A DNA stretch of 64,000 nt from Pirellulales bacterium (lineage in GTDB: Bacteria; Planctomycetota; Planctomycetia; Pirellulales; Lacipirellulaceae), in NCBI GenBank assembly GCA_019636345.1, contig JAHBXQ010000008.1, forward strand, positions 1 through 64,000, in the 5' to 3' direction. Position numbers and translations under genes: made by a program. Positions 27,771 through 34,563 of the stretch are shown here, in pieces (position 1 is the first letter of the stretch; each line of letters begins with the position of its first letter). The notes beneath the pieces were generated by a model. The model was not told where the DNA came from, did no database searches, and saw only the letters and a list, made by a program, of their open reading frames with translations.

Positions 27771-28640
27771 ATGAACGCCGCTCGGTTGTTCGCCCCGTTG
27801 CTCCTGACGCTCCCCGTCGTTTGTCCCCCGTCCGCCCAGGCAAGCGACGGGCCGGACGCTCTCCGCTCCTATCGCTTCGTCCCGGCGCTCAGCACGCTGC
27901 GCGAGTCGGGCGGGTTCGCCGGGTTCGTCACCGACTTCACGATCCGCGGCTCGTTCGACTTCGTCACGTATTACGGCTACGGCTCGGGCCCGGAGCCGTC
28001 GATCGTCCGCAAGGCGTTGTTCGACGACGTTGAAGCCTGGGCGTCGCACCCGATTCTGGCGTACGTGCTGAACGTCGATCGCGAACTGGGGCTGTCGACC
28101 CTTTCCGGGACGCTGGCGCCGTTGGGGCTGCCGATCGACGTCTACCGCTTCACCGGCTCGAACGACGACGGGCATCCGGTCGAGCTGTACACGGCCTCGG
28201 TCGGCCGGTGGCTCTACCTGCGCGGCGAGACGAGCCCCCCGTGCTGCGACTTCTTCAAGTACGAGGTGCGGGCCGTCGCCCGACTCGCCACGCTCGCCGA
28301 TCGCAATCGCGACGGGCAGGTCGATCGCGGCGACCTGACGCAGTGGGGGAGCGATTTCGGACTGCCGGCGGCGGCGGCGTTGGACGACTCGAACGCCCTC
28401 GGCGCCGGCGTGGTCGACGGCGGCGACTTCCTCGCTTGGCAGCGCGAGGCGAGCGCAGCCCCGCCCGACTTTGCGACCCTCGACGCGGCGATCTCCGCCG
28501 CTTTGGCGTCGTCGAGCGACGCCGCGACGATCGCGTCCGTCGCCGTGGCGCCCGAACCGGCGACTCTGATCCTCGGGATCGTCGCGGCGGGATTGGCCTG
28601 GGGGCGTCGAAGCCGTCGTCGCCCCGTCACTCCAGCGTGA
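27771..28640 (+). CDS. PEP-CTERM exported protein with degenerate dockerin-like motif
   Basis: A 289-residue exported protein with signal peptide MNAARLFAPLLLTLPVVCPPSAQA. The central domain (about 25-180) has no family I recognise; it includes a CC pair (SPPCCDFFKYE). Residues about 180-225 carry a dockerin-like pair (DRNRDGQVDRGDLTQWG, then DGGDFLAWQRE). The end is APEPATLILGIVAAGLAWG with the basic tail RRSRRRPVTPA, a PEP-CTERM variant. Its last 14 bases overlap the 3' end of the pyruvate carboxylase gene on the other strand, so the C-terminal tail is read from DNA that is also the end of that coding region. Function unknown. Confidence 0.85.
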   Translation: MNAARLFAPLLLTLPVVCPPSAQASDGPDALRSYRFVPALSTLRESGGFAGFVTDFTIRGSFDFVTYYGYGSGPEPSIVRKALFDDVEAWASHPILAYVLNVDRELGLSTLSGTLAPLGLPIDVYRFTGSNDDGHPVELYTASVGRWLYLRGETSPPCCDFFKYEVRAVARLATLADRNRDGQVDRGDLTQWGSDFGLPAAAALDDSNALGAGVVDGGDFLAWQREASAAPPDFATLDAAISAALASSSDAATIASVAVAPEPATLILGIVAAGLAWGRRSRRRPVTPA

Positions 28641-31600
28641 TCAGCAAATCCCCCGTCTCGACCTGCGTCCCCGCGGCGACGTGAACGTCTTTCACCTTGC
28701 CTTCGGCCTCGGCGAGGATGGTGGTTTCCATCTTCATCGCTTCCAGGGTGAGCAGCTTCTGCCCCGCCACGACGCGGTCGCCGGGCTGGGCGGCGACGAC
28801 GACCACCAGCCCCGGCATGCCGGCGCCGAGGTGCTTGGGGTTCTTCGGGTCGGCCTTGGTCCGCTGGACGACGTCCCCCTCGAGCGCATGGTCGGGGACC
28901 GTCACCTCGCGCGGCTGGCCGTTGAGCTCGAAGAAGACGCTCCGCGTGCCGTCGTGATGGGCGTCTCCCACGGTCAGGAACTTGAAGATCAGCGTCTTGC
29001 CCGGCTCGATGTCGACCGCGATCTCCTCGCCCGGTTGCATGCCGTGGAAGAACACCGGGGTGGGCAACACGCTGACGTCGGCGAACTGCCGCTGGTGCTC
29101 GGCGAACTGCTCGAACACTTGCGGGTACATCAAGTAACTGACGACGTCTTGCGAGGTCGGCTCGCGGTCGACGAGCGCGGCGACCGACGCGCGGGTCTTT
29201 GCGAGGTCGGCGGGGGGAAGGCTCTCGCCGGGCCGGCCCTCCAGCGGCTTCTCCCCGCGGAGGATCCGGTCGCGGACCTCGGGGGGGAAGCCCCCTTCGA
29301 CCTGCCCCATCCGGCCCCCCAACAGGTCGAGCACCGACCGCGGGAACGCCAATTCGCGATTGCCGGCCATCAGTTCGTCGCAGCTTAGGTCGTTGGCCAC
29401 CAGGAACAGGGCCATGTCCCCCACCGCCTTCGAGGTGGGGGTCACCTTGACGATGTCGCCGAACAACCGGTTCACGTCGGCGTACATCCGGCACACCTCG
29501 GGCCAGCGAGACGACAGCCCCAACGACTGGGCCTGCTGGAACAAATTGGTGTATTGACCCCCAGGCATTTCGTGCTGGTACAAATCCGATCCCGCGGCGA
29601 GCACGGGGCTCTCGAACGCGGCGTAGAATTCGCGGGTCTCGCGCCAGTACTCGCTGATCTCGTCGAGCGCCGCGCCGCGGAGCGACCCCTCGCGAGGCGT
29701 GTGGCGCAGCCCCTCGACCAGCGTGTTGAGATTCGGTTGCGAGGTTCCCCCCGACATCGCGGCGATCGCGGCGTCGGCGACGTCGAGCCCGGCGCCGGCG
29801 GCGTTGAGGATCGTCGCCGCCTGCACGCCCCCCGTGTCGTGGGTGTGGAAGTGGATCGGCAGCCCCGTCTCGTCGCGCAGGGCTTTCACCAATACGGCCG
29901 CCGCGTGCGGCTTGCACAGCCCGGCCATGTCTTTGATCGCCAGAATGTTGGCGCCAAGTTGCTTGAGCTCCTTGGCCAGGGCGACGTAGTACTTGAGGTC
30001 GTACTTGGGGCGCCGAGGGTCGAGGATGTCGCCCGTGTAACAGATGGCCGCCTCGCACACGGCGCCCGCCTCGCGCGTCGCCTCCATGGCGACCCGCATG
30101 TTGGGGGTCCAGTTCAGGGCGTCGAAGATGCGAAACACGTCGATCCCCGCCGCGGCCGCCTCGCGGACGCACTCACGGACCAGGTTGTCGGGGTAGTTGG
30201 CGTACCCCATGGCGCTCGACGCGCGGAGCAGCATCTGGAACAGGATATTGGGAATCCGCGTCCGCAGCTGCTCGAGCCGCTGCCAGGGAGACTCCTTGAG
30301 AAACCGCATCGAGACGTCGAACGTCGCCCCGCCCCACATCTCCAGCGAGAACAAATCGGCGCAGTGATGGGCGTAGGCGTCGGCGATTTGCAGCAGGTCG
30401 TACGTGCGAACCCGAGTCGCCAGCAGCGACTGGTGGGCGTCGCGCATCGTCGTGTCGGTCCACAACAGCGGCTTCTGCTCGCGAATCCACGCGCAGAACT
30501 TCTCGACCCCCAACTCCTTCAGCCGGTCGCGCGTGCCGCGCGGCAGCGGCGCAGCCGAGTCGATCGCGGGGACCTGGGCCGGCTCGCGTCGCTTGGCGAC
30601 CGGGGCGTCCTTGACGCTTGGGTTGCCGTTGACGATGCAATCGCCGACGTACTGCATCAGCTTGGTCGCCCGATCGCGCCGCGGCTGGAACTCGAACAAC
30701 TGCGGCGACTCGTCGATGAATCGCGTCGTGCACTGCCCCGCCAGAAACGTGGGGTCGGTCACCAACCGCACCAGGAACGGGATGTTCGTCTTGACGCCGC
30801 GGATGCGGAACTCCTGCAGGACGCGCTCCATGCGCCCCGCGGCCTCGACGAACTGGCGCCCCCAGCAGCTTACCTTCACCAGCAGCGAGTCGTAGAACGG
30901 GAAGACCACGGCGCCGGAGAACGCAGTCCCCCCGTCGAGCCGCACCCCCATGCCGCCCGACGAACGATAATGGGTCAGCTTGCCGTAGTCGGGCATGAAC
31001 TTGTTGGCCGGGTCTTCGGTGGTCACGCGGCACTGGATCGCGAAGCCGGTCGTCGCGATGTCCTCCTGCGCGGGCAGGCCGACGACCTCGCCGTCGAGCC
31101 GCTCTCCCTGGGCGACCAGGATTTGCGATCGCACCACGTCGACCCCTGTCACCTCCTCGGTGACGGTGTGTTCGACCTGAATCCGCGGGTTGACCTCGAT
31201 GAAGTAGATTTCGTTCGTGTCCGCGTCGAGGAGGAACTCGACCGTGCCGGCGTTGTCGTAGCTCACCTCGCGACCGATCGCCAGCGCCGCGTCGCACAGC
31301 TTCTGCCGCACCGCGGGAGCGAGGTTGGGCGCGGGCGCGATCTCGACCACCTTCTGGTGGCGGCGCTGCACGCTGCAGTCGCGCTCGAACAGGTGGACCA
31401 GGTTGCCGTGGCCGTCCCCCAGCAACTGCACCTCGATGTGCCGGGCGCGGGTGATGAACTTTTCGACGAAGATCTCGTCGCTGCCGAACGCCGTGAGCGA
31501 CTCGCGCCGCGCCGCCTCGAAGGCGTCGGCGAAGTCCTCGGCCCGCGGGACGACCCGCATGCCGCGCCCCCCGCCGCCGTGAGCCGCCTTGAGGATCACG

Positions 31601-32070
31601 GGGAACTTCAGCGTCTCGGCCGTCTTGAGCCCGTCGGCCGCGTCGCGGATCGGCGCGTCGCTCCCCCCCAGCACGGGGACGCCGACCTTGGTCGCCACGC
31701 GGCGCGCCGACAGCTTGTCGCCAAGCTGTTCGAGCAGCTCGGTCCGCGGGCCGACGAACGCGATCCCGTGAGCGCGACAGGCCCGCGCGAACCGCGGGTT
31801 CTCGGACAAAAAGCCGTAGCCCGGGTGGATCGCGTCGATCTCGCGCTCGACGGCCAACTCGACGATCCGCTCGACGTCGAGATACGCGGCCAACGGCTTG
31901 CCCGGCTCGCCGATCGGGTACGCCTCGTCCGCCTTGAACCGATGGAGCGCGTACCGATCCTCGTGCGAGTACATCGCCACGGTGCGAATGCCCAACTCAT
32001 GGGCGCTGCGGAAGACGCGAATGGCGATCTCGCTGCGATTGGCGGCGAGCAAACGACGAATGGGCTTCAT
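28627..32070 (-). CDS. pyc: Pyruvate carboxylase
   Basis: A full-length 1147-residue enzyme that carboxylates pyruvate to oxaloacetate using ATP and bicarbonate. The biotin carboxylase half (about 1-460) has the ATP-grasp loop KAAHGGGGRGMR and EVNPRIQVEHTVTEE. The carboxyltransferase domain (about 530-820) begins LLWTDTTMRDAHQSLLATR, with the metal- and substrate-binding residues of the HMGL-like barrel. The C-terminal biotinyl domain has the biotinylation motif LEAMKMETT. The start at 32070 gives the canonical MKPIRRLLAANRSEIAIR. It supplies oxaloacetate to the TCA cycle, encoded elsewhere in this window. The 3' end overlaps the convergent PEP-CTERM gene by 14 bases. Confidence 0.95.
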   Translation of the reverse strand: MKPIRRLLAANRSEIAIRVFRSAHELGIRTVAMYSHEDRYALHRFKADEAYPIGEPGKPLAAYLDVERIVELAVEREIDAIHPGYGFLSENPRFARACRAHGIAFVGPRTELLEQLGDKLSARRVATKVGVPVLGGSDAPIRDAADGLKTAETLKFPVILKAAHGGGGRGMRVVPRAEDFADAFEAARRESLTAFGSDEIFVEKFITRARHIEVQLLGDGHGNLVHLFERDCSVQRRHQKVVEIAPAPNLAPAVRQKLCDAALAIGREVSYDNAGTVEFLLDADTNEIYFIEVNPRIQVEHTVTEEVTGVDVVRSQILVAQGERLDGEVVGLPAQEDIATTGFAIQCRVTTEDPANKFMPDYGKLTHYRSSGGMGVRLDGGTAFSGAVVFPFYDSLLVKVSCWGRQFVEAAGRMERVLQEFRIRGVKTNIPFLVRLVTDPTFLAGQCTTRFIDESPQLFEFQPRRDRATKLMQYVGDCIVNGNPSVKDAPVAKRREPAQVPAIDSAAPLPRGTRDRLKELGVEKFCAWIREQKPLLWTDTTMRDAHQSLLATRVRTYDLLQIADAYAHHCADLFSLEMWGGATFDVSMRFLKESPWQRLEQLRTRIPNILFQMLLRASSAMGYANYPDNLVRECVREAAAAGIDVFRIFDALNWTPNMRVAMEATREAGAVCEAAICYTGDILDPRRPKYDLKYYVALAKELKQLGANILAIKDMAGLCKPHAAAVLVKALRDETGLPIHFHTHDTGGVQAATILNAAGAGLDVADAAIAAMSGGTSQPNLNTLVEGLRHTPREGSLRGAALDEISEYWRETREFYAAFESPVLAAGSDLYQHEMPGGQYTNLFQQAQSLGLSSRWPEVCRMYADVNRLFGDIVKVTPTSKAVGDMALFLVANDLSCDELMAGNRELAFPRSVLDLLGGRMGQVEGGFPPEVRDRILRGEKPLEGRPGESLPPADLAKTRASVAALVDREPTSQDVVSYLMYPQVFEQFAEHQRQFADVSVLPTPVFFHGMQPGEEIAVDIEPGKTLIFKFLTVGDAHHDGTRSVFFELNGQPREVTVPDHALEGDVVQRTKADPKNPKHLGAGMPGLVVVVAAQPGDRVVAGQKLLTLEAMKMETTILAEAEGKVKDVHVAAGTQVETGDLLITLE

Positions 32071-32120
32071 GCGAGACGACTGGCGGCAAGAGGACGAGAC
32101 GGCAAGCGCGCAGATCGCCC

Positions 32121-32142
32121 AGTATACCCTGCCCCGGCAGGG
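32121..32142 (-). promoter_or_regulatory. Candidate pyc promoter -10 with adjacent palindrome
   Basis: On the minus strand tatact (32126-32121) resembles a -10 box about 50 bases upstream of the pyc start. Immediately upstream lies a perfect palindrome (ccctgcc-cc-ggcaggg, 32127-32142), placed where an operator would overlap the promoter spacer. No good -35 box is seen, so the call is tentative. Confidence 0.35.
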
Positions 32143-32308
32143 TGCGGCAGAGTCGCGGCGGCGGCGAAAAAGCTTGTGCGCGGGCGTGAAGGCGCACAGC
32201 AAGCGGAACGACCCCGTTCACCTGCTGCGGCGGCTGGTAAGACGTTGAACTCTGAAAAACCGTCCTGCCGCCGCGGCCAGGTGCAACGGCTGGTTCGCGG
32301 CGGCACGC

Positions 32309-32944
32309 CTAGCCAACCAACCGCCTCGCGATTACAGCGGGCGACACCCCAGAGAATGCGAACTGAAGACCGGCTCGGAATGGCTGGATGCCATCCGGGT
32401 TCTTCGACACAAAGAAGAAGCTTGCGGCCTGTGACTGATATGCAAACGCTGCGAGGCCCGCAGTCGTCAGCATACGCAAGCCATGCCAGACGTATGGATT
32501 CGCAGACGGCGGAACGTCATTGAGCCTAGGGTTCGGCCAGTATTGATGTCTGTAAACGATCAATGCCTGCCGATTGCAGAGCATTGCAGCAAGCTCGGTG
32601 ATCAGGATCTTCTTCTCGGACTTGCCGTTATGGTGCGTGTAGAAACCAGTGTCGGGATCCAGGAACAAGAAGCGATGGTTGATAGCCCCCACCGCTGCGA
32701 CCCACTTTTGTCGTTTGCCGGGGTCATTGGAAGAGGGCACATTCACGAAGCCACCGGGTTTCCAGAACGTGCGGTCGGCAGGAATCCCAATCGCGGTCTC
32801 GAAAACTGCCTTCTCGGCATCGGCCCAGGGCCCGTCGGTGGTCATTGGAACGCAGGCGATGGAGCCAGCAACCTCTGCAGGCAACAAGCGGAAAACGAGT
32901 GCCTTCAACCCGTCGAGGCTGTCGAGAAGGTATTCCCGGTTCAT
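32309..32944 (-). CDS. Conserved hypothetical protein
   Basis: A 211-residue soluble protein with no signal peptide or membrane segment. I start it at the ATG at 32944 (MNREYLLDSLDGLKALVF); a longer frame to 32989 exists. Distinctive stretches are VPMTTDGPWADAEKAVFE, GINHRFLFLDPDTGFYTHH (approximately), LIVYRHQYWPNPR and FAYQSQAASFFFVSK. The pattern of aromatic and charged residues suggests an enzyme-like fold, but I do not recognise the family and no function is assigned. It is the last of three minus-strand genes in a stretch of visibly lower GC content between pyc and fumC, which may have been acquired separately. Confidence 0.7.
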   Translation of the reverse strand: MNREYLLDSLDGLKALVFRLLPAEVAGSIACVPMTTDGPWADAEKAVFETAIGIPADRTFWKPGGFVNVPSSNDPGKRQKWVAAVGAINHRFLFLDPDTGFYTHHNGKSEKKILITELAAMLCNRQALIVYRHQYWPNPRLNDVPPSANPYVWHGLRMLTTAGLAAFAYQSQAASFFFVSKNPDGIQPFRAGLQFAFSGVSPAVIARRLVG

Positions 32945-33046
32945 GACGCCTCCACCAGCGAACGACCAAGGTAACCCGGCGGCGGCCAAGCAACGTTGAT
33001 TTCAGAACCCGCTCGATCCGCCGCTCGGGTTCACCGCTTTGTTCGG

Positions 33047-33685
33047 TCACTCTCTCTTGTTGGCGTCGCGCTCGGATTTCTGCTGTTTCAGTTTCTCAGC
33101 CATCTCCTGCGGAAGCGCGATTACGGCAGCCTTTTGACGGAGTGCTTCAATCTCGGTGTCGTCAAGTTCACGGCCAAGACGTTGTGCTTGAATCTGCGTG
33201 AGTTCCTCGAAGCTTGGGACAAACACCAGCATAAGTCCGTTGGGATTAGGAAGCTTCGAGAGGTCACCAAATGCGCCAACTTGTGATTCGCGAAGTGTTC
33301 CGTCATCGGTGACCGGTGATGGTCTTTCTTGTGGCTGTTTTGGTGCCGCTTCCGCCACTGTGGCAAACTTTCGGATCGTCAAATGGTCGCACAGCGAGTC
33401 AGTGTCTCGTATTCCCGCGGCGCTTACCAACGCATCTTCACTGATCGTGATGCCAAAACGATCCTCGACTTCCATCGTGATTTCAACGAGATCAAGGTCA
33501 TCGGCACCGACGCCGCCAAAGGTCATCTCTGGAATTACGTCTGCGTCTTTTAGGCCGAGCTGTTTAGCGATGATGGATTGAACGTTTGCCAACATTGACG
33601 AATGCGGTGCTATCGTCTCGGGTGCTCGCGACGGGCCGCACCCGGCGATAACACTGGCGATCAGAAGTATGCCGAGGCGCGCCAT
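33047..33685 (-). CDS. Lipoprotein with acyl-carrier-protein-like domain lacking the carrier serine
   Basis: A 212-residue predicted lipoprotein. The signal ends VIAGC, a lipobox with Cys at about 16. Residues about 32-105 align by eye to an acyl carrier protein: VQSIIAKQLGL, then GADDLDLVEITMEVEDRFGI and ITISEDALVS. In carrier proteins the motif is GADSLD, the Ser carrying phosphopantetheine; here it is GADDLD, so the prosthetic group cannot be attached at that position. A Pro/Gln linker and a charged C-terminal part (about 140-212, ending KLKQQKSERDANKRE) follow. It lies downstream of the frameshifted lipoprotein gene and upstream of the hypothetical gene on the same strand. A protein-interaction role outside the cytoplasm is the best inference. 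Confidence 0.75.
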   Translation of the reverse strand: MARLGILLIASVIAGCGPSRAPETIAPHSSMLANVQSIIAKQLGLKDADVIPEMTFGGVGADDLDLVEITMEVEDRFGITISEDALVSAAGIRDTDSLCDHLTIRKFATVAEAAPKQPQERPSPVTDDGTLRESQVGAFGDLSKLPNPNGLMLVFVPSFEELTQIQAQRLGRELDDTEIEALRQKAAVIALPQEMAEKLKQQKSERDANKRE

Positions 33686-33859
33686 GATGTTTGTGACCGA
33701 ACGGCGGCGTTGACCGGGCCGCCGCCGATCAACATTGACCTCACGAACGACGCGATCGGCGGCTCCGCGTCCAACGCGTTATTATACCGCATCCGATCTT
33801 GTGATCAACGTTGCCGCCTCTCGACAACAATCTTTTGACCTTGACAAGCGATGCGCAGA

Positions 33860-34269
33860 CTAGAATTCAATTTTGTCTCGAATTTCTTGCCACTCCTCCC
33901 ATATGCGTTCAGGATCCATCCGGTGGACGGGCACCTGACTGTCGAGCGATTCGTAGAATTTCCGGGCTTGAGCTTTGGTCATTTGCACAGACACAGTGGA
34001 ATCGCGAACAGCAAGTACCTCCGCCTCGGTAGAGGCGAGCCTTTCTGTCGCTCCTTGCCAGCGAGCAACGTCATTAACGGATTTAGATAGACCTTGACGG
34101 TCGGTTCTTCTCCGCCCATGGCATTCTCTTGTGATTGTGTAGGCGAAACGGATGATTCAGTAGTTGGTGCAACAGACGGTTCTGGGCGTGGCGTGGTGGA
34201 TGCGTTGCAACCGATGAGAAAGCATGATAACGCTACGATTGCAGGTCGATGGGCAAGTTGAAACGACAT
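33860..34269 (-). pseudogene. Lipoprotein gene with apparent frameshift
   Basis: The minus-strand frame from ATG 34269 encodes a lipoprotein signal (ALSCFLIGC) and a Pro/Ser/Thr-rich linker up to GGEEPTVKVYL (near 34085). In that frame the protein then loses character and stops at 33979. In a shifted frame the DNA continues as protein-like sequence, with segments VNDVARWQGATERLAS, VSVQMTKAQARKFYESL and PERIWEEWQEIRDKIEF, ending at a TAG at 33860-33862. The two together look like one gene of about 135 codons with a frameshift near 34080-34090. Either it is a decayed gene, a programmed slip, or a sequencing error. The intact product would be an anchored lipoprotein with a helical C-terminal domain; function unknown. 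Confidence 0.55.
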
Positions 34270-34563
34270 TGTGTTTCTCACGGGTATAACAAGCATTCTA
34301 CGGCTCAGCGCCGCATAGCGCCTGACAGGAAGGAATTATGTGGCATGCAGACGTCTAGCACAGGCCTGCCGCCGCTCCACTCCTCGACGGAACTCCTGTT
34401 ACGGCAACATCGTATCGGCGACCGACCCCCTCGACAAGTTTCTGCAAAGGGGGCGCGGCGCCGTTGAGTACGCCGTTGTCCGGTGTGATCCAGCCGAACT
34501 CCGTCCGAAGAGATCGGAAGCTACTTGGCTGCTTGATCGGTTTCGAGACAAGATGCGTTCGCT

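Follow-up and report, generated by a model that had tools for sequence, protein, structure and literature searches.

The 64 kb window, that is, the whole stretch of 64,000 nucleotides that was analyzed, carries on its minus strand the gene of a 212-residue lipoprotein, here called P0001, in which a domain resembling acyl carrier proteins (ACPs) is followed by a second domain (Ctd). In what follows, identifiers beginning with G denote genomes and those beginning with L denote loci. The features of the locus are as follows:

33047–33685 (stop included), minus strand: gene of the ACP-like lipoprotein P0001 (212 aa), ATG start
33638–33685, minus strand: predicted signal peptide with lipobox IAGC and Cys16 (residues 1–16), from sequence and a pattern match
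33356–33598, minus strand: ACP-like domain, residues ~30–110, with an insertion (by eye) ahead of the last helix
33497–33499, minus strand: codon of Asp63, at the position of the phosphopantetheine serine, motif GADDLD
33071–33298, minus strand: Ctd, residues ~130–205, in no Pfam family, with relatives that stand alone or are fused to DUF2314
33697–33787, plus strand: attC 5′ of the gene (54.7 bits, E 8.2e-13), containing the inverted repeat 33707–33730/33754–33777
32958–33047, plus strand: attC of the P0001 cassette, 3′ side, 61.4 bits, E 1.1e-14
32309–32944, minus strand: gene of the next cassette, 211 aa, no convincing family match
32204–32299, plus strand: third attC, closing the next cassette (43.2 bits, E 1.3e-9)
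33860–34296, minus strand: preceding gene, a second lipoprotein with a Ctd and no visible ACP domain, frame broken near the middle

The N-terminus of P0001, MARLGILLIASVIAGC, forms a short lipoprotein signal with Cys16 and fits a PS51257-like lipobox pattern; the export signal is well supported by sequence, and P0001 is predicted to be an exported, envelope-anchored lipoprotein. The Pfam model PP-binding (PF00550) matches residues 35–94 at 34.8 bits (cut-off 20.8), and phmmer placed residues 28–97 against solved ACPs with a best E of 5.4e-9. All matches to NCBIfam ACP models fell below their cut-offs, the best at 47.3 bits against 71. A normal ACP is also encoded in the genome of the window, where it has the motif GADSLD and adjoins a fabG-like gene (L003). 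The initial annotation of P0001 as an ACP-like lipoprotein with Asp in place of the phosphopantetheine serine is thus borne out by the ORF, the lipobox, the PF00550 match above cut-off, and the GADDLD motif, to which the minus-strand orientation can be added.

An attC covariance model returned three sites, and no others, in the window (E up to 10), two of which frame the P0001 gene, and the sites frame single ORFs in the same orientation, namely P0001 and the gene at 32309–32944. The model was built from 27 elements of two other genomes, G610 and G670, in which the relatives of P0001 lie within, or end, arrays of repeated ~90-base intergenic elements. In alignment, the 27 elements share invariant ends, AACG and GTT, and double changes that preserve the pairing occur in 16 of 21 predicted pairs; these invariant ends and the paired covariation identify the elements as attC sites. 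The G610 relative is framed by attC on both sides (L080 9107–9198 and 9846–9934) and lies ~5 kb from an integrase above the TIGR02249 cut-off, while for the G670 relative an attC was found on the 3′ side only (L081 9328–9419). Contig C1 of G610 is unusually rich in integron content, with several attC arrays, at least 149 attC matches among the 150 candidates scored, and six integrases above the TIGR02249 cut-off, some of which score equally or nearly so.

The genome of the window (G000) contained no integrase above the TIGR02249 cut-off, and 13 attC matches were recovered among the 150 candidates scored. Two decayed frames resembling integron integrases (L207 9615–9956, minus strand, and L205 9406–9828, plus strand) were read as relics; L207 has six attC sites, two of them weak, ~2–8 kb from its integrase-like fragment, and one more occurs in L206. 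As a prediction from sequence, the assignment of the P0001 gene to an integron cassette, in an attC cluster without an intact integrase, is well supported. The fetched surroundings of the other eleven family members described below held no attC apart from one match at 16.9 bits (E 0.094), so that cassette life, as seen, is confined to the clade of the window, G610, and G670. Nine other frames from the G610 and G670 cassette arrays gave a Pfam match in one case (DUF4279), and the surroundings alone therefore do not indicate immunity.

The product of the 32309–32944 gene had a best E of 0.26 in Pfam and 0.038 in NCBIfam and no match in PADLOC or PHROGs. The gene at 33860–34296, when read through its frame break, is 53% identical over 79 residues to the Ctd of the G640 relative; the break may be real or an assembly error. 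No toxin, effector, or known defense gene was seen beside P0001, and PADLOC returned nothing for the four proteins scanned. Across the surroundings of 12 relatives (L080–L091; crude gene finder, inspected by eye) no gene recurs beside the lipoprotein in more than one genus; sharing occurs within genera only, with several neighbors common to G375 and G512 and two to G640 and G601, the latter not adjoining the lipoprotein in G601. Directly beyond the attC array lies a long pyruvate-carboxylase-like ORF (28627–32202, minus strand, by eye). The plus strand at 27771–28640 encodes what by eye is a secreted protein, with a stretch similar to dockerin and a tail of PEP-CTERM type. Near the G316 relative, at a distance of ~4 kb in L088, there is also a pyruvate-carboxylase-like ORF, differently arranged; this was taken as coincidence.

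Whole-genome searches yielded 14 serine-less domains including that of P0001, of which 13 belong to lipoproteins and one to a transmembrane protein with leucine-rich repeats (LRR). Searching 392 genomes of the phylum with a single sequence, and 396 genomes of the order with the C-terminal piece, gave five relatives with an ACP-like domain, all with a signal peptide as judged by sequence and all without the serine. The set was enlarged to 14 with a profile (A1) run against the 396 order genomes, a larger profile (A2) run against the 392 phylum genomes, and inspection of frames; the second copy in G375 and the G504 member do not stand out from ordinary ACPs by score and came to light only when long or signal-bearing frames were inspected. 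Among 69 distinct profile-matching frames in the fetched DNA, the serine is kept in the 55 outside the family. A recount by pattern gives 56 and 13 rather than 55 and 14 because ADSID occurs elsewhere in the G610 protein, the actual motif of which is GGDDLD.

None of the 14 members has Ser at position 63. The site is Asp in five (the window, G610, G670, G640, and the second copy in G375), Glu in five (G415, G601, G316, G632, and G504), Gly in two (G375 and G512), Gln in one (G247), and Asn in one (G468). The possibility that P0001 is an ordinary ACP altered by a sequencing change was rejected on this count. The loss of the serine, described in the initial annotation, therefore holds for the homologues found as well. 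On the two points that it proposed to check in homologues, Asp is not fixed, as only the absence of Ser is common to all, and the lipobox is kept in 12 of the 13 lipoprotein members by the PS51257-like pattern; the thirteenth, G640, keeps the Gly and Cys and fails the pattern. The lipobox Gly and Cys are invariant in the 12 rows of alignment A2. For the G316 protein the start is uncertain, the sequence having been cut at a position without a start codon, and in 5 of the 55 serine-keeping frames a lipobox string ahead of the real start was judged by eye to be there by chance.

Eight of the 14 members are lipoproteins with an ACP-like domain and no further visible domain. The G504 protein (L110 3–1118, plus strand) is a membrane protein with leucine-rich repeats ahead of a C-terminal serine-less domain with the motif EADEVD. 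In the G632 protein (L026 676–1899, minus strand) a lipoprotein, the serine-less ACP domain stands ahead of an EF-Tu-like one in which no P-loop is visible (36.7 bits to Pfam GTP_EFTU, profile positions 84–164 of 188); one exported chain here joins what appear to be inactive versions of two abundant cytosolic proteins.

The family is patchily distributed, with members in at least 12 of the 396 order genomes and, above 100 bits, in at least 5 of the 392 phylum genomes. At a strict limit of 1e-22, which makes these sizes lower bounds, at least 1 of 150 genomes of the taxonomic family of G415 and at least 2 of 14 genomes of the genus of G610 contained a member. In the 43 genomes of the window's own taxonomic family, a single-sequence search found only the copy in the window. 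Proteins of the DUF1559 and PEP-CTERM types in these genomes suggest that they belong to Planctomycetota and are similar to Pirellulales. A phage origin was rejected, as the sole phage record matched (Xanthomonas phage phiXF1) carries an ordinary ACP with Ser. Two plasmid records matched, both from Leptospira, and in the one examined the match is annotated as acpP. A first scan of viral contigs found no relative and a profile scan of them found 10 loci, all with Ser (L103 duplicates another); a search of genome contigs gave one locus only, an ordinary ACP.

Much of the region around the lost serine is retained. Asp65, Glu74, and Ile81 occur in all 14 members, Asp62 and Leu64 in 13, and Ala61, Val67, Glu68, and Met71 in 11 each, against none for Ser63. 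These were compared with 66 ACP rows (63 of them different) that had been picked for DSLD, so that their 100% Ser is by selection. Six columns are invariant in the ACP rows, and of these Ser alone is lost completely in the family. Seven more columns, in which one residue makes up 65–92% of the ACP rows, lack that residue throughout the family; Ser is therefore not the sole change in the domain. Several of the seven fall in residues 89–93, close to the insertion and in the least certain part of the alignment. The last helix is kept after an insertion of ~10 residues (by eye, alignment A2).

In a tree with 45 ordinary ACPs, the 14 family rows form one side of a single branch with support of 99/94, within the limits set by 80 columns, long branches, and a bootstrap that had not settled. 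The 45 were the first in file order of 62 non-family rows, and row L001 was dropped as its motif did not match the pattern. Within the family, nonsynonymous differences per site (pN) were 0.24–0.29 against 0.74–0.79 for synonymous differences (pS) in the pairs G610/G670, G375/G512, and G640/G601. For the window gene against G610 and G670, pN was 0.42 and pS 0.72–0.79, giving uncorrected ratios of 0.54 and 0.58. Synonymous sites are saturated, so the true ratios are lower than those computed, and the lower pN in all five pairs tested implies that selection has acted on the family genes.

P0001 modelled from its single sequence was unusable (pLDDT 39.7). The domain modelled with an alignment of 23 ACPs (22 from viral contigs and one from a bacterial contig) gave four helices with a pLDDT of 69.7 and a pTM of 0.59. 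Foldseek with this second model returned 53 PDB chains at E ≤ 0.001, and the best 50 of the 53 are ACPs or entries that contain them, with a TM-score by query of 0.67–0.83; the matches include ACPs in complexes, such as MmpL5-MmpS5-AcpM (9mvz, 8zkp) and chloroplast FtsHi motors (8xks, 8xqw). The domain is thus compatible with the ACP fold in the predicted model, as the initial annotation had supposed, in a comparison that is partly circular since ACP sequences were supplied as the alignment.

The Ctd follows the serine-less domain in 4 of the 14 members (the window, G610, G670, and G640). It drew no family match from Pfam, PADLOC, or PHROGs with P0001, or from Pfam with two stand-alone copies, and nothing better than an E of 0.25 among PDB sequences. 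A Ctd profile matched in 9 of 137 genomes. The domain stands alone in G163 and G742, and in several Ctd proteins DUF2314 comes next (a score of 69.5 bits confirms this for L201, the others were judged by eye); Pfam found no DUF2314 in P0001. In G512, a Ctd gene with DUF2314 (by eye) lies between attC-like sites at L194 976–1068 (27 bits, weak) and 1754–1843 (43.6 bits). A survey of polymorphic toxins equates DUF2314 with Imm34 and places it in heterogeneous polyimmunity loci (PMC3482391). On a Cupriavidus plasmid a stand-alone Ctd (L203 6932–7294, plus strand) comes immediately after a gene for an annotated T6SS immunity protein containing a Tdi1 domain; the Pfam model T6SS_Tdi1_C scored this neighbor at 27.0 bits, just under its cut-off of 27.4. 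Pantoea accounts for 48 of the 49 plasmid records that match the Ctd, and in the one record examined, a plasmid of Pantoea agglomerans (L204 7001–7249, plus strand), no immunity gene lies beside it. The plasmid copies in L203 and L204 are annotated as hypothetical proteins, and the Ctd also weakly matches one Shewanella phage (two records, E 9e-5). The Ctd recurs in cassettes, sometimes with immunity domains.

A secreted chain outside the cytoplasm cannot use AcpS-type priming. With the chain predicted to be exported beyond this priming and the serine gone, a function as carrier is very unlikely, and the loss of Ser in distant relatives too makes it probable that the domain has been retained for binding rather than carrying. 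The simplest mechanism is a binding module with a lipid anchor. An ACP fold without the serine would not be primable with phosphopantetheine and would still present the acidic docking helix beside the lost residue; the acidic helix II of ordinary ACPs is the docking surface for their partner enzymes. Most probably, a lipid-anchored protein of this kind would bind an incoming or envelope protein through its ACP recognition surface and its Ctd, the possible targets being an effector from another bacterium, a protein of a phage, or an envelope enzyme that depends on ACP. Such a target might be sequestered or inhibited, with the protein serving as an immunity protein or decoy, and the Asp or Glu found at the serine site in 10 of 14 members may mimic the negative charge of phospho-serine. 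The best available reading makes P0001 an envelope-anchored pseudo-carrier that serves for protein docking or as a decoy, probably in conflict between bacteria or with phages; it is put forward tentatively, with somewhat less than even confidence. The export signal, the fold family, the loss of Ser across the members found, selection on the gene, and the cassette are read from the sequence, while any docking, decoy, or immunity role, the partner, and the phosphate mimicry are inferred; it could be held against docking that the retained residues of helix II may be structural, as helix caps. The initial annotation is upheld in part: loss of the serine, the ACP fold, and the lipobox stand, its new binding role may apply, and the integron cassette and the second domain had been missed.

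The strongest competitor is a scaffold of the envelope: the pseudo-ACP would serve as a structural subunit or adaptor within an enzyme or transporter complex there and would have nothing to do with conflict. A structural part in larger complexes is known for ACPs, and the fold matches include ACPs built into such assemblies (9mvz, 8zkp, 8xks, 8xqw). The eight members composed of nothing more than a lipoprotein signal and the ACP-like domain, and the appearance of the domain on a transmembrane LRR protein in G504, also suit a scaffold, whereas the patchy presence of the family and a neighborhood in which no gene recurs except within one genus do not. The Ctd and the cassette habitat favor a conflict role over a housekeeping scaffold, though they concern only 4 and 3 of the 14 members, respectively, and the scaffold is judged somewhat unlikely. 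Work reported in PMC12444791 found 20% of the Vibrio cholerae integron cassettes without predicted function to be anti-phage, which makes a conflict role plausible without showing it for P0001. A narrower form of the preferred reading would make P0001 an immunity lipoprotein against one specific toxin that has an ACP-binding site. Periplasmic T6SS immunity proteins are common, which counts for this version, as does the Tdi1 gene beside the Cupriavidus Ctd. Imm65 sets a precedent for an immunity protein that bears a lipobox (PMC3482391). This version is nevertheless improbable, given that no cognate toxin was found and that the partner domains (Ctd, EF-Tu-like, LRR) are very different.

There are two further alternatives. 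The protein might be a carrier with another attachment chemistry, or might bind acyl chains or lipids in the hydrophobic pocket of the ACP fold without a covalent arm. Retention of the fold and of many hydrophobic positions agrees with this, but the variability of the site (Asp, Glu, Gly, Gln, or Asn) argues against any covalent chemistry there, and the alternative is regarded as decidedly improbable. Least probable, and disfavored, is a vestigial acpP duplicate that acquired a signal peptide and is drifting without function. The patchy distribution, the long branches, and the higher ratios of the window pairs (0.54 and 0.58, with pS saturated) speak for it, yet pN is below pS in all five pairs, the lipobox Gly and Cys do not vary in the 12 A2 rows, helix-II residues are kept across deep divergence, and of the six invariant ACP columns only Ser is completely lost. 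Beyond the preferred reading of P0001 as an envelope-anchored docking or decoy module, it may be that the members form a general class of exported pseudo-carriers, often with an acidic mimic of phospho-serine, that act as decoys or immunity proteins against effectors or phage proteins that recognize ACP, with the G632 protein hinting at a wider strategy in which inactive copies of abundant cytosolic proteins are displayed on the envelope; this bolder proposal is unlikely.

Few cytoplasmic proteins are as conserved and abundant as ACP, and the serine arm is its defining feature. Export of the ACP fold without the arm, in a conserved family, would separate docking from carrier function and would provide a natural module for learning what the ACP surface alone can do. 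With one clade in cassettes and a domain found elsewhere with immunity genes, inter-bacterial or phage conflict becomes a possible selective force. Among the matches listed from the open-access literature, titles and abstract openings contained no report of serine-less exported ACPs, and the term 'acyl carrier' is absent from the first 300,000 characters of the main text of PMC3482391.

Compared with known systems, P0001 resembles the type II ACP (AcpP; PF00550, TIGR00517) in its helix pattern, its DxLD motif, its acidic helix II, and its Pfam score above cut-off. It differs from AcpP in lacking the serine, in being an exported lipoprotein as judged by sequence, in the insertion before the last helix, in the additional Ctd, and in reaching none of the cut-offs of the NCBIfam ACP models that matched it. 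Unlike a complete integron, the genome of the window has two integrase-like fragments and no integrase above cut-off, while the ORF itself is framed by strongly covarying attC sites in the manner of an integron gene cassette. Unlike Imm34 (PMC3482391), P0001 does not contain DUF2314; it is like the polyimmunity proteins of that survey in having a Ctd that is elsewhere fused to DUF2314/Imm34 and once lies beside a Tdi1 gene, and in carrying a lipobox, as does Imm65.
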